Below the pieces are notes generated by a model. The model was not told where the DNA came from and made no database searches. It saw only the letters and a program-made list of their open reading frames with translations. Shown here in pieces: positions 20,569 through 25,706 of a stretch of 64,000 nt of DNA. Each line of letters begins with the position of its first letter. Positions within the stretch are counted from its first letter, which is position 1. The translations under genes were made by a program, and so were the position numbers. The DNA comes from an uncultured Pelagibacteraceae bacterium (GTDB lineage Bacteria; Pseudomonadota; Alphaproteobacteria; Pelagibacterales; Pelagibacteraceae), in NCBI GenBank assembly GCA_902587145.1, contig CACIKD010000003.1, positions 22,014-86,013 of the forward strand, in the 5' to 3' direction.

Positions 20569-21141
20569 CTATCTTGGTGATCTTTTGGATAAAATTCTCT
20601 GTAAAGTTCTTCGGTGCATTTTTAGACGTCTAGCGGTTTCAGAGACGTTTCTATTGCATAATTCAAAAACTCTATGAATATGCTCCCATTTTACTCTATC
20701 AGCTGACATTGGATTCTCAGGTGGTTTTGCTTTTGATTCTGGCGATGCCAATAAAGCTGATTCAACATCATCTGCATCAACAGGTTTAGCAATATAATCA
20801 ATTGCTCCTGCTTTTACAGCTGCCACAGCTGTTGGTAAGTTTCCATATCCGGTAAGCATTACAATTCGGCTGTCAGACTTGTGTTTGGAAAGCTCTTTTA
20901 TGACATCGAGCCCATTGCCATCTTCCAACCTAAGGTCTACTACAGCGAAATTAGGGGGTGTTTTTTTAACAATTTCAAGCCCTTCAGCCACAGTTTTGGC
21001 CTCTTTTACCACAAAACCTTTCTTTTCCATTGCTCTTGATAATCTTCCTCTAAGAGGATCGTCATCATCAAGGATTAACAAGGATTTATCTTGAAAATCA
21101 CCCAGATTTAGCTGAGGGGTTTGTAAATTTGTTTTTCTCAT
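20569..21141 (-). CDS. regA: RegA/ActR/PrrA-type response regulator
   Basis: SLLILDDDDPLRGRLSRAMEKKGF, VDLRLEDGNGL, C-terminal Fis-like HTH NVSETARRLKMHRRTLQRIL. Confidence 0.92.
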   Translation of the reverse strand: MRKTNLQTPQLNLGDFQDKSLLILDDDDPLRGRLSRAMEKKGFVVKEAKTVAEGLEIVKKTPPNFAVVDLRLEDGNGLDVIKELSKHKSDSRIVMLTGYGNLPTAVAAVKAGAIDYIAKPVDADDVESALLASPESKAKPPENPMSADRVKWEHIHRVFELCNRNVSETARRLKMHRRTLQRILSKRSPR

Positions 21142-21319: not shown

Positions 21320-22498
21320 ATGGAAAAATTTAATAGCGTTAACGAATTAGTTAACAAACTTAAACCAGTAAATCCTGTATACTGTATACGCCCAGATACC
21401 ATAAAAAATTCAATTAAAGTTTTTAAAGATAAGTTTCCAGGTAAAATATTATATGCTGTTAAGACCAATCCGAATGAATATGTTCTTAAACATATAATTA
21501 AAAACGGAGTGGAAAGATTTGACGTTGCCTCAATTAATGAGGTTAAACTTATAAGAAAACTTAGTCCTAAGTCAAAATTATACTTTATGCACCCTATTAA
21601 AAGCAGGGAGGACATTACATCCGCATATTTTGATTACAGTGTAAAAGATTTTTCTTTAGATACTAAAGAAGAGTTAATGAAAATACTGGATTCAACAAAA
21701 AATGCAAAAGACTTAAATTTGTTCGTAAGAATTACAGTTTCAAATGAGCATGCAGAATTAGACCTTTCAAGAAAATTTGGAGCTTTAACAGGAGAAGCTT
21801 TAGGTTTAGTGAGACTTTGTAAACAGCATGCAAAAAAATTAGGTATTAGTTTTCACGTAGGTTCTCAATGTATGCATAAGATTTCTTTTTCAAAAGGATT
21901 AAAGGAAATTTCAAATATAATCAAAAAAACAAAAATTGTACCTGATACTATTAACGTCGGTGGAGGATTTCCCTCTCTTTATCCTGATTTAAAACCTGAG
22001 CCTTTAGAAAATTACTTTGAAGAAATTAAAAAAGGTTTAGGTCAATTGAAACTTGAAAAAATGCCAGAAATTATTTGTGAGCCGGGAAGAGCGATAGTGG
22101 CTGAAAGTGGATCTACTATTGTACGAGTTAATCTGAGAAAGAAAAATAAACTTTACATTAATGATGGAACTTATGGGTCCTTATTTGATGCAGGTGTACC
22201 TAATTTTATATTACCAACAAGATTGATTACTAATGGCAGAATTCAATCTAAAAAGATAACAGCTTTTCAATTTTACGGTCCAACCTGTGATAGTTTAGAT
22301 TACATGAAAGGACCTTTTTTATTACCTAATAATATTAAAGAGGGTGACTATATTGAATTAGGACAATTAGGAGCTTACGGACTAACTTTTAGAACTAAAT
22401 TTAATGGTTTTTATTCAAATACTATTGTTGAGGTCAATGATAAACCAATAATGTCATTATACGACGATACTGGTAAATTTAATTACTTAGTAGCTTAA
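21320..22498 (+). CDS. PLP-dependent ornithine/lysine decarboxylase (alanine-racemase fold)
   Basis: YAVKTNP, HVGSQC, VGGGFPSLYP, EPGRAIV, GPTCDSLDYM; GGGGGA SD 8 nt upstream. Confidence 0.88.
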   Translation: MEKFNSVNELVNKLKPVNPVYCIRPDTIKNSIKVFKDKFPGKILYAVKTNPNEYVLKHIIKNGVERFDVASINEVKLIRKLSPKSKLYFMHPIKSREDITSAYFDYSVKDFSLDTKEELMKILDSTKNAKDLNLFVRITVSNEHAELDLSRKFGALTGEALGLVRLCKQHAKKLGISFHVGSQCMHKISFSKGLKEISNIIKKTKIVPDTINVGGGFPSLYPDLKPEPLENYFEEIKKGLGQLKLEKMPEIICEPGRAIVAESGSTIVRVNLRKKNKLYINDGTYGSLFDAGVPNFILPTRLITNGRIQSKKITAFQFYGPTCDSLDYMKGPFLLPNNIKEGDYIELGQLGAYGLTFRTKFNGFYSNTIVEVNDKPIMSLYDDTGKFNYLVA

Positions 22499-23544
22499 TG
22501 AATAAAAAAAGTAGTTCTGCTGCAGGACATAACAAAAAATCGTTTCTAAACAAACCTGTTGAACATATAGATATAACAAAATTTGACTCTCGAGAAATAA
22601 TTGAGTCTATGAGTAAAATGTCATTTACTTCAAGAGATACAGCTAACGCTTCAAAAATATTTAATGAAATGATTGAGGACAAGTCTTGTTCAATTTTTTT
22701 GACTTTAGCAGGCTCTACTTCAGCTGGTGGTTGTATGAAATTATATTCTGATTTAGTTAAGTACAATATGGTAGACGCTATTGTCGCTACAGGGGCTTCT
22801 ATTGTGGATATGGATTTTTTTGAGGCTTTAGGTTTCAAACATTATCAAGGCTCACAGTTCGAAAATGACACCAAGTTAAGAGAAAACTACGTTGATAGAA
22901 TATACGATACATATATCGATGAAGAAGAACTACAAGCTTGTGATCAAAAGATATGTGACATTGCAAATTCTTTAGAGCCTAAAACTTATACATCAAGAGA
23001 ATTTATTAATGAAATGGGTAAGTATTTAAAAAAAAATTCAAAAAAGAAGGGTTCTTTAATCGAGACTGCTTATGATAACAATGTCCCAATTTTTTGTCCG
23101 GCATTTACAGATAGTTCAGCCGGTTTTGGATTAGTGATGCATCAGGAACAAAATCCAAAAAAACACCTTACAATTGATTCAATAAGAGAATTTAGAGAAT
23201 TAACAGAAATTAAACTTAGATCTAAACAATCTGGTCTACTCATGGTTGGTGGAGGAGTGCCAAAAAACTTTATACAAGACACAGTTGTGTGTGCAGAGCT
23301 TCTGGGTAAGAAAGTAGATATGCATAAATATGCTATTCAAATAACCGTTGCTGATACTCGGGATGGTGCGTGCAGCAGCTCAACTCTCAAAGAAGCAAGT
23401 TCTTGGGGCAAAGTTGATATATCTAAAGAGCAAATGGTTTTTGCTGAAGCAACTAGTGTATTACCGTTAATTGCAAGCGATGCTTTTCATAGACAAAATT
23501 GGAAAAAGAGAGAAAAAAGAGAATTTTCCAAAATCTTTAAATAA
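22498..23544 (+). CDS. Deoxyhypusine synthase-family protein (possible homospermidine/spermidine synthase)
   Basis: GSTSAGG, IVATGASIVDMDFFEALG, GGGVPKNF, active-site-like EASSWGKV, SVLPLIASDAF. Confidence 0.85.
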   Translation: MNKKSSSAAGHNKKSFLNKPVEHIDITKFDSREIIESMSKMSFTSRDTANASKIFNEMIEDKSCSIFLTLAGSTSAGGCMKLYSDLVKYNMVDAIVATGASIVDMDFFEALGFKHYQGSQFENDTKLRENYVDRIYDTYIDEEELQACDQKICDIANSLEPKTYTSREFINEMGKYLKKNSKKKGSLIETAYDNNVPIFCPAFTDSSAGFGLVMHQEQNPKKHLTIDSIREFRELTEIKLRSKQSGLLMVGGGVPKNFIQDTVVCAELLGKKVDMHKYAIQITVADTRDGACSSSTLKEASSWGKVDISKEQMVFAEATSVLPLIASDAFHRQNWKKREKREFSKIFK

Positions 23545-23545
23545 A

Positions 23546-24442
23546 ATGAATTTTCTAAAACAAAAAGATGGGTTTTTGGGATATGAAGCCAATACAAGAA
23601 CCAAAAGTAAAGTTGTTGTTGTGCCATTTGGATTAGAAAAAACAGTATCATACGGTGGGGGAACTAAAAATGCACCAAAGGAAATTATTAAAGCTTCTCA
23701 TCAGGTTGAATTATTTGATGAAGAACTTGGTAAAGAAACATTTAAATATATAGGTATTAAAACTTTAAAATCTTTTAGAATAAAAAATCAAATTAAGTCC
23801 GCGCTGACTCAAATAGCAAGTTTAATTGAAAAAATTCTCTCAAAAAAATTATTCCCACTTGTATTAGGGGGAGAACATTCTATAACTAGTGGATCAATTA
23901 GACCATTCGTGAAAAGATTTAAAAGCCTTTATATTCTTCATTTTGATGCTCATGCAGATTTAAGACAGCAGTATGACGGAGAAAAATACTCCCATGCGAC
24001 AGCAATAAGAAGATGTCTAGATTTCAAGAATGTAAAAGTTATATCATTTGGTATCAGAAATTTATCCAAAGAAGAAATGACTTTTTATAATAAAAACAGA
24101 AAAAGAATTAAAATTTTTTGGGGTAATAAAAAAAATGAATGGAAAATTTCTGAAATTCGTAAAATTTTCAAAAATAAGAATGTTTATATCACGTTTGATG
24201 TAGACGGCTTTGACTCAAGTTTAATGCCGGCAACTGGCACGCCAGAACCAGGTGGAATGTTTTGGAACGATGTGATGCCTATTTTAAAAAACGTATGCTC
24301 AGTTTCTAATGTAGTAGGTGCAGACATAAATGAACTTGCGCCCATTAAAAACTTTAATTCTTGCAATTTTTTAGTAGCAAAACTTGCTTATAAAATAATA
24401 TCTTATGTATTCGAGTTTAAGACGAAATATTCAAATCGTTAA
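23546..24442 (+). CDS. speB: Ureohydrolase, agmatinase-like
   Basis: GGEHSIT, HFDAHADLR, SHATAIRRC, TFDVDGFDSSLMPATGTPEPGG; start placed at ATG 23546, after the upstream stop. Confidence 0.85.
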   Translation: MNFLKQKDGFLGYEANTRTKSKVVVVPFGLEKTVSYGGGTKNAPKEIIKASHQVELFDEELGKETFKYIGIKTLKSFRIKNQIKSALTQIASLIEKILSKKLFPLVLGGEHSITSGSIRPFVKRFKSLYILHFDAHADLRQQYDGEKYSHATAIRRCLDFKNVKVISFGIRNLSKEEMTFYNKNRKRIKIFWGNKKNEWKISEIRKIFKNKNVYITFDVDGFDSSLMPATGTPEPGGMFWNDVMPILKNVCSVSNVVGADINELAPIKNFNSCNFLVAKLAYKIISYVFEFKTKYSNR

Positions 24443-25706
24443 TTGTCCACTTTATTTTCACTCTAGCACCATTCAGAACACCACCATTTTCAAAAGATAT
24501 TACTGCTGATTTTCTTTCTAATAAAGTTTTACCCAAAAAAGTCCCTAGTCCCAACCCTGCATTATTTTTTGATAATTTTGATCTAGATTTTATATAAGGT
24601 TCGCCTAATGCTTTAATTATATCTTCAGGAAAACCTGGGCCATCGTCATCTATATATATATATAAATTAATATTGTCACTGACTATTGATATAATTATCT
24701 CTTGATTTGCAAATTTTACTGCGTTTCCAATGAAGTTTCTTAAACCGTAAATAAGTTCTGGGTTTCTCTTAATTTCTATTTTATTAATATCTTTATCAGT
24801 GTTTAATTTTAAAATTTTTTCTGAGGATTCTTTGAAAGATTTTATTATTTCTTCTAACAGGTCTTCAAAACTCATAGAGCTTAGAAATTCATCGCTAATA
24901 ATTTTTTTTTGAGAAATATTCTTAAGAATTTCACTACATCTCTTTGTTTGACTTATTAATAAGTCAATATCCTTTGTAAGTTTGGATTTATCACCGACCT
25001 CTTTTCTCATCTCTTTGGAAACCACAGATATTGTAGCTAATGGTGTACCAAGTGAATGGGCTGCGGCAGCTGCTTGACCACCTAAAGATTCTAGCTCATA
25101 TTCTTTAGCCAATATTTGTTGAAGTTTATTAAGTGCATCAGATCTTTTTTTTGTTTCTCCGGCAAATCTAATGCCAAAATAACTTAAAAATATAAGACCA
25201 ATTATTAAAGAAATTAATATTCCTGTTACATAATAATTTGGAAATGAAAGTACGTATTCTTCCATTCCAGGTAAAGGCATTTTAAAAAATGTCAATACAA
25301 ACAATAAAATAATTGTTAATGATCCAAGTATAATAGTGCTCCCCATGCTTAAAAAAGTGGAAGAAACAATCGTAGGAACTATCAAAAGAATTGCAAACGG
25401 GTTAAAGATGCCCCCTGTTAAAAATAATAAAAAACTTAATTGTACAATATCATACATAAGAAATGATCTAGAATATGCGTCTTTGAGCAAAGTCGCTTTA
25501 AGACCAAATTGTAAATATAAGTTAGTGAAAAATCCTACAACTATAATTAAATGACAAAGTAAAATTGGGAAATTTAAATCAAGAAAAAAATAAACTAAAT
25601 TGACTGAAAAAACTTGACCAAAAATAGCAATCCATCTTAAAATTACTAGCGTTTTTTTATCTAAATTTAGGTTTTCTTCTAACCTGAAAATAGTAGCAAA
25701 ATCCAT
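24417..25706 (-). CDS. regB: RegB/PrrB/ActS-type redox sensor histidine kinase
   Basis: Multi-TM N-terminus with GGIFNPF (quinone-box-like), H-box AAAAHSLGTPLATISVVSKEM, DDGPGF, GLGLGTFLGKTLLE. Confidence 0.9.
   Translation of the reverse strand: MDFATIFRLEENLNLDKKTLVILRWIAIFGQVFSVNLVYFFLDLNFPILLCHLIIVVGFFTNLYLQFGLKATLLKDAYSRSFLMYDIVQLSFLLFLTGGIFNPFAILLIVPTIVSSTFLSMGSTIILGSLTIILLFVLTFFKMPLPGMEEYVLSFPNYYVTGILISLIIGLIFLSYFGIRFAGETKKRSDALNKLQQILAKEYELESLGGQAAAAAHSLGTPLATISVVSKEMRKEVGDKSKLTKDIDLLISQTKRCSEILKNISQKKIISDEFLSSMSFEDLLEEIIKSFKESSEKILKLNTDKDINKIEIKRNPELIYGLRNFIGNAVKFANQEIIISIVSDNINLYIYIDDDGPGFPEDIIKALGEPYIKSRSKLSKNNAGLGLGTFLGKTLLERKSAVISFENGGVLNGARVKIKWTINDLNISS

Follow-up and report, generated by a model that had tools for sequence, protein, structure and literature searches.

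Three adjacent genes in a 64,000-nucleotide stretch of DNA (the window) from an uncultured Pelagibacteraceae bacterium very likely form an operon that leads from arginine via agmatine to homospermidine and putrescine. The central gene encodes a homologue of deoxyhypusine synthase (DHS), which probably acts as an NAD-dependent, homospermidine-forming enzyme that couples agmatine or putrescine, to judge by its sequence. We tentatively favour agmatine, at close to an even chance, as the substrate that this enzyme couples, in the manner of the Thermus enzyme CdmS.

The original prediction had described a compact three-gene polyamine operon, and both the layout and the assignment to polyamine metabolism were confirmed: all three ORFs lie on the same strand (Table 1) and match, in order, the Pfam families Orn_Arg_deC, DS and Arginase. 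The decarboxylase and DHS-like genes overlap by 1 bp (TAATG), and a 1-bp gap separates the DHS-like and ureohydrolase genes. Regulatory genes flank the operon, and the same RegA, RegB and BioY genes flanked it in all three SAR11 regions checked (L216 and L219, in which the third gene is swapped, and L222, in which it is not). The BioY gene adjoins the RegA gene, and the convergent ureohydrolase and RegB ORFs share 26 bp. An Rfam search of the window found no RNA elements. The source genome is 685 kb in size and 61% complete; its SAR11/Pelagibacterales label rests on likeness to published descriptions (operon content, a SpeD-SpeE fusion and, among its relatives, small AT-rich genomes of about 1.0–1.5 Mb). 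Across the 30 SAR11 loci examined, the decarboxylase gene always adjoined the DHS-like gene and a guanidino-removing module always lay beside the pair, so the association of these genes is not due to chance.

Table 1 Positions of the operon, its flanking genes and the catalytic lysine codon in the window
Feature	Position	Strand	Details
ActR/RegA regulator gene	20569-21141		one flank of operon
Alanine-racemase-fold (AR-fold) PLP decarboxylase	21320..22498	+	392 aa; PF02784/PF00278
DHS-like protein	22498..23544	+	348 aa; PF01916 (E 5.5e-97)
Codon of catalytic-Lys equivalent K305 (SWGK)	23410..23412	+	aligns to K329 of human DHS and K299 of Thermus CdmS
Ureohydrolase, agmatinase family	23546..24442	+	298 aa; PF00491 (E 5.4e-60)
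ActS/RegB kinase gene	24417-25706		other flank of operon

The solved structures nearest to the decarboxylase (PF02784 match, E 1.7e-36) are lysine/ornithine decarboxylases, followed by a chlorovirus arginine decarboxylase, so that sequence alone would point to an ornithine decarboxylase. Purified homologues from Ca. Pelagibacter and Fonsibacter were active on arginine only, and on neither ornithine nor lysine (PMC9992855), and orthologues with 61–92% identity to the window protein are found upstream of the DHS-like gene in 30/30 SAR11 loci. Because the window enzyme is orthologous to those assayed, the cluster very probably holds its own arginine decarboxylase, one derived from an ornithine decarboxylase, and the original prediction that it lacked this activity is very probably wrong. 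A search for AR-fold proteins identified one further such decarboxylase, LysA-like by size and score, in most relatives within the genus. Reading the specificity from the region of ornithine decarboxylase Asp332 was abandoned, as the alignment there is too uncertain.

The DHS-like protein contains the EASSWGKV and GGGVPKN motifs that had been reported in it, and K305 is invariant in two family alignments (A2 and A3). Its AlphaFold2 model (pLDDT 91), built from an alignment of the window and homologous loci, matched solved DHS structures in Foldseek (E 2.6e-21, TM 0.76). The fold and the catalytic lysine, shared with eukaryotic and archaeal enzymes, would suit a genuine deoxyhypusine synthase that modifies a lysine in a protein, or an inactive relative, but we consider either highly improbable. 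The protein falls under every curated DHS cut-off (TIGR00321, 238.1 versus 304.3; PRK00805, 306.5 versus 434), has Phe and Cys where human DHS has Asp243 and Asp316, and, bacteria to our knowledge being without eIF5A, would have no such substrate; inactivity is difficult to reconcile with catalytic and pocket residues that are nearly invariant over many phyla. The earlier proposal of an NAD-dependent synthase of the homospermidine type rather than a true DHS is thus far supported. The protein also lies under the cut-off of NF001980, the homospermidine biosynthesis protein model for another bacterial DHS-like family (190.9 versus 450). Many genomes of family f30 encode proteins of ~320 aa that match PF01916 weakly and in part (E 1e-8 to 1e-3) and may be a remote family with the DHS fold; no DHS homologue was found in phage records.

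By contrast with these models, the NCBIfam model NF002699 (CdmS, 1,9-bis(guanidino)-5-azanonane synthase) is passed, at 573.9 bits against a cut-off of 500; a Thermus member scores 541. T. thermophilus CdmS takes agmatine as its sole substrate, ignores putrescine and produces caldomycin, which the ureohydrolase TtSpeBap converts to homospermidine (PMC10981699). The shared family and the strict preference of CdmS favour agmatine coupling in the window, and the guanidino intermediate that the original prediction had suspected is plausible on the Thermus model, although its description of the route as undefined is outdated now that the Thermus pathway has been worked out (PMC10981699). Following that pathway, the decarboxylase would convert arginine to agmatine, as SAR11 homologues do; the DHS-like enzyme would then join two agmatines into 1,9-bis(guanidino)-5-azanonane (caldomycin) using NAD and a lysine-bound imine, a reaction shown only for Thermus CdmS; and the ureohydrolase would strip the guanidino groups from caldomycin to yield homospermidine. 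The ureohydrolase may also convert free agmatine to putrescine, from which a SpeD-SpeE fusion encoded elsewhere, of a kind with demonstrated activity in Pelagibacter, would make spermidine. In sister genomes, AguB-AguA would take the place of the ureohydrolase.

The NF002699 match is evidence of family rather than of substrate, since the alphaproteobacterial sister clade as a whole, together with Trichormus and Syntrophaceae proteins, also passes (matches include L042, L043, L044, L045, L050, L089 and L160); the product name, given for caldomycin synthesis, may overreach across so broad a family. The Trichormus variabilis member is a CdmS-type DHS homologue encoded on conjugative plasmid A (L089:5998-7041), beside rocD and iron-transport genes, which suggests that it does something other than supply polyamines in bulk.

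The seven modelled CdmS pocket residues (PMC10981699) were mapped via the Thermus homologue L146 onto the window protein, whose identical copies L001 and L002 carry the result. Six are kept (CdmS S67, E136, D143, F204, E293 and K299, corresponding to S73, E142, D149, F210, E299 and K305; K299 is the catalytic lysine, and S67, E136, D143 and E293 touch the guanidino groups in the model), in favour of agmatine coupling, while CdmS Leu286, at the position of human Asp316, is Cys292. The full Thermus Leu pattern was seen in 75 loci of many phyla, Thermus included, among ~140 aligned rows. The Cys version marks a single clade comprising all alphaproteobacteria plus L043, L160, L164, L166 and L167 (SH-aLRT 100); L105 also has Cys yet is placed outside it on the tree. 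That Leu286 is replaced throughout the alphaproteobacterial clade counts against agmatine coupling, although this is one modelled residue and no established determinant of specificity. We rejected the seven residues as a test of substrate, as six are nearly invariant across the family and so carry no report of specificity; with sister groups also passing NF002699, neither residues nor model decide between agmatine and putrescine.

The ureohydrolase exceeds the cut-off of the TIGR01230 agmatinase model (201.4 versus 174.3), retains all six metal (Mn) ligands in the order H-D-H-D-D-D (H111, D134, H136, D138, D218 and D220) and has agmatinases as its nearest solved structures. Its slot is variable: among 30 SAR11 DHS loci, 20 have a ureohydrolase there and 10 an AguB-type amidase gene followed by an AguA-type deiminase gene. 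One locus counted among the former, L027, has a PhzF-like isomerase gene, recognised by eye, between the DHS and ureohydrolase genes. On the SAR11 DHS tree this exchange requires six label changes, five of them forced by well-supported branches. The closest relatives of the window (L003 and L004), with DHS proteins 94–95% identical to its own, have AguB-AguA.

This exchange is most easily explained by a rival reading of the same operon, to which we assign a smaller but substantial probability, in which the DHS-like enzyme is a homospermidine synthase of the SpeY type that couples putrescine to putrescine, and the module in the third slot performs an ordinary agmatine-to-putrescine step beforehand: at least five swaps between ureohydrolase and AguB-AguA are simplest if putrescine is their shared product. 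Agmatine coupling would instead require AguA and AguB to act on caldomycin in the lineages that have them, two of which have the near-identical DHS-like proteins just described; we know of no precedent for such an activity. That the SAR11 enzyme couples two agmatines and that, in AguB-AguA lineages, the deiminase-amidase pair then strips caldomycin to homospermidine is, as a combined proposal, doubtful.

The AguB and AguA sequences lean the other way. SAR11 AguB shares 58% identity with a DHS-linked homologue in a Micrarchaeota MAG, compared with 44% for an AguB of its own order, and SAR11 AguA is 39–47% identical to DHS-linked copies of other phyla and about 27–34% to alphaproteobacterial ones. 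The DHS-linked AguA proteins tested, those of SAR11 included, scored 244–290 bits, under the agmatine-deiminase cut-off of 381.8; five unlinked AguA proteins scored 324–591 bits, with three over the cut-off, and the AguA of L177, whose genome has a DHS gene on a different contig, scored 250 bits. AguB proteins of SAR11, L127 and L170 lie under the N-carbamoylputrescine amidase cut-off, and those of alphaproteobacteria over it. These data fit an AguB-AguA module specialised to the DHS pathway, a reading limited by small numbers and relatedness, and the nearness to the Micrarchaeota copy and the low scores favour agmatine coupling, as does the presence of a guanidino-removing module at every SAR11 locus.

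A wider survey of 80 DHS-family loci from many phyla, with flanks of up to 4 kb, identified a recognised polyamine neighbour in 17, every one of them agmatine-linked (12 ureohydrolase, 5 long SpeA arginine decarboxylase, 3 AguA and 2 AguB). None of the 80 had a short AR-fold decarboxylase beside DHS within the 4-kb flanks; one appeared only at the alphaproteobacterial plasmid locus L091. Of the speD homologues studied, most of those that decarboxylate arginine lie in clusters with speY and either speB or aguA/aguB, while those that decarboxylate ornithine cluster with other pathways (PMC10407285). Both associations favour agmatine coupling, and putrescine coupling does not explain why, across the family, the linked decarboxylases act on arginine and not on ornithine.

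An agmatine-deiminase-family gene was present in 16/16 alphaproteobacterial sister genomes. The decarboxylase, DHS and AguB-AguA genes were clustered in three of these genomes (G453, G279 and G180); in G445, DHS and AguB-AguA were clustered and the decarboxylase lay on another contig. The possibility that the DHS-adjacent decarboxylases of other alphaproteobacteria are ornithine decarboxylases, which would favour putrescine, was dropped because of the deiminase gene in all 16 genomes and the three loci with decarboxylase-DHS near AguB-AguA. The 16/16 co-occurrence is itself confounded by relatedness, since 7/20 DHS-negative alphaproteobacteria, among them the two members of family f7 that lack DHS, carry such a gene, a point that counts against agmatine coupling.

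Elsewhere in the source genome, a SpeD-SpeE (AdoMet decarboxylase-aminopropyltransferase) fusion (L215:2446-3486, minus strand) is probably the spermidine maker; Pelagibacter fusions produced spermidine, spermine and thermospermine in E. coli (PMC11107197). Since relatives make spermidine in this way, the host would not need the DHS-like protein for it. The original prediction had named SpeD and SpeE encoded elsewhere as a competing source of host polyamines, and the fusion bears this out for spermidine, the part that it covers. Agmatine aminopropylation is limited to Thermus among thermospermine synthases and to four named enzymes among spermine synthases (PMC11107197), so SAR11 spermidine probably requires free putrescine, supplied, again probably, by the decarboxylase and the third-slot module; the use of putrescine by SAR11 SpeDE fusions (PMC11107197) is a point for putrescine coupling. 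A saccharopine-dehydrogenase-like homospermidine synthase (HSS; PF03435-type) was not found in the cluster, and the best match in the incomplete source genome reached 25 bits.

In culture, HTCC1062 contains spermidine and homospermidine, and HTCC7211 spermidine alone (PMC8437039). When putrescine was raised in HTCC7211, homospermidine did not rise, and the authors concluded that homospermidine synthesis is not the main function of the DHS-like gene, dys2, leaving its role open (PMC8437039). This result favours agmatine coupling over putrescine coupling; in addition, the literature covered reports no putrescine-active NF002699 member, and the one assayed ignores putrescine (PMC10981699). The analytes of the culture study (Table 1 of PMC8437039) included agmatine; caldomycin and aminobutylagmatine were not among them. 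HTCC7211 fed with norspermidine gained spermidine and homospermidine, in which the authors left a part for Dys2 possible (PMC8437039). This would suit a promiscuous enzyme that transfers aminobutyl or guanidinobutyl groups among mixed acceptors (agmatine, putrescine, diaminopropane and norspermidine) for polyamine salvage or catabolism, with no single biosynthetic product, and eukaryotic DHS is called highly promiscuous in PMC7780104. We nevertheless judge such promiscuity quite unlikely, given the tight operon with an arginine decarboxylase and a guanidino-removing module at 30/30 loci, the restriction of Thermus CdmS to agmatine (PMC10981699) and the loss of the two human aspartates.

According to the legend of Fig. 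2 in PMC9992855, Ca. Pelagibacter and Fonsibacter clusters have the same gene set, in bacteria apparently of the same order, and that paper reports both third-slot variants, agmatinase or AIH-NCPAH. Those clusters come from other species, and their authors label the SAR11 protein a DHS/SpeY homospermidine synthase, its substrate being assumed (PMC9992855). The Thermus pair CdmS (TTHA1570) and TtSpeBap belongs to the same NCBIfam family and likewise has a ureohydrolase as functional partner (PMC10981699); the Thermus homologues L146 and L150 are about 56% identical to the window DHS-like protein, but neither SpeA nor SpeB occurs in the 4 kb around them, whereas the window genes form an operon. 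Another alphaproteobacterium, Zymomonas mobilis, has a decarboxylase-DHS operon (ZMO1020-ZMO1019) and homospermidine as its main polyamine, with AguA/AguB in a separate operon (ZMO1369/ZMO1370); the pathway proposed by its authors couples putrescine (PMC8594446). The assumption of putrescine in both of these papers (PMC9992855, PMC8594446) weighs against agmatine coupling. In Anabaena, in the account of Burnat 2018 given in PMC10385936, arginine decarboxylase (SpeA), agmatinase (SpeB) and a DHS homologue (SpeY) are all required for homospermidine.

SAR11 bacteria rank with the most abundant cells of the ocean, and their nitrogen economy includes polyamines. Close relatives are already known to carry this gene set (PMC9992855); added here are the pattern of module swaps in the third slot, the Leu/Cys split in the pocket and the caution on the NCBIfam name. 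Taken together, the SAR11 culture study (PMC8437039), the decarboxylase assays (PMC9992855) and the Thermus caldomycin work (PMC10981699) yield a single question, whether agmatine or putrescine is the substrate of the DHS-like enzyme, and the answer would show whether the NCBIfam name, applied to all members over the cut-off, holds outside Thermus. If agmatine coupling with removal of the guanidino groups from caldomycin is true, caldomycin would be an intermediate in abundant ocean bacteria; as caldomycin was no analyte, this would explain the low homospermidine of SAR11 cultures and a Dys2 seemingly inactive on putrescine.
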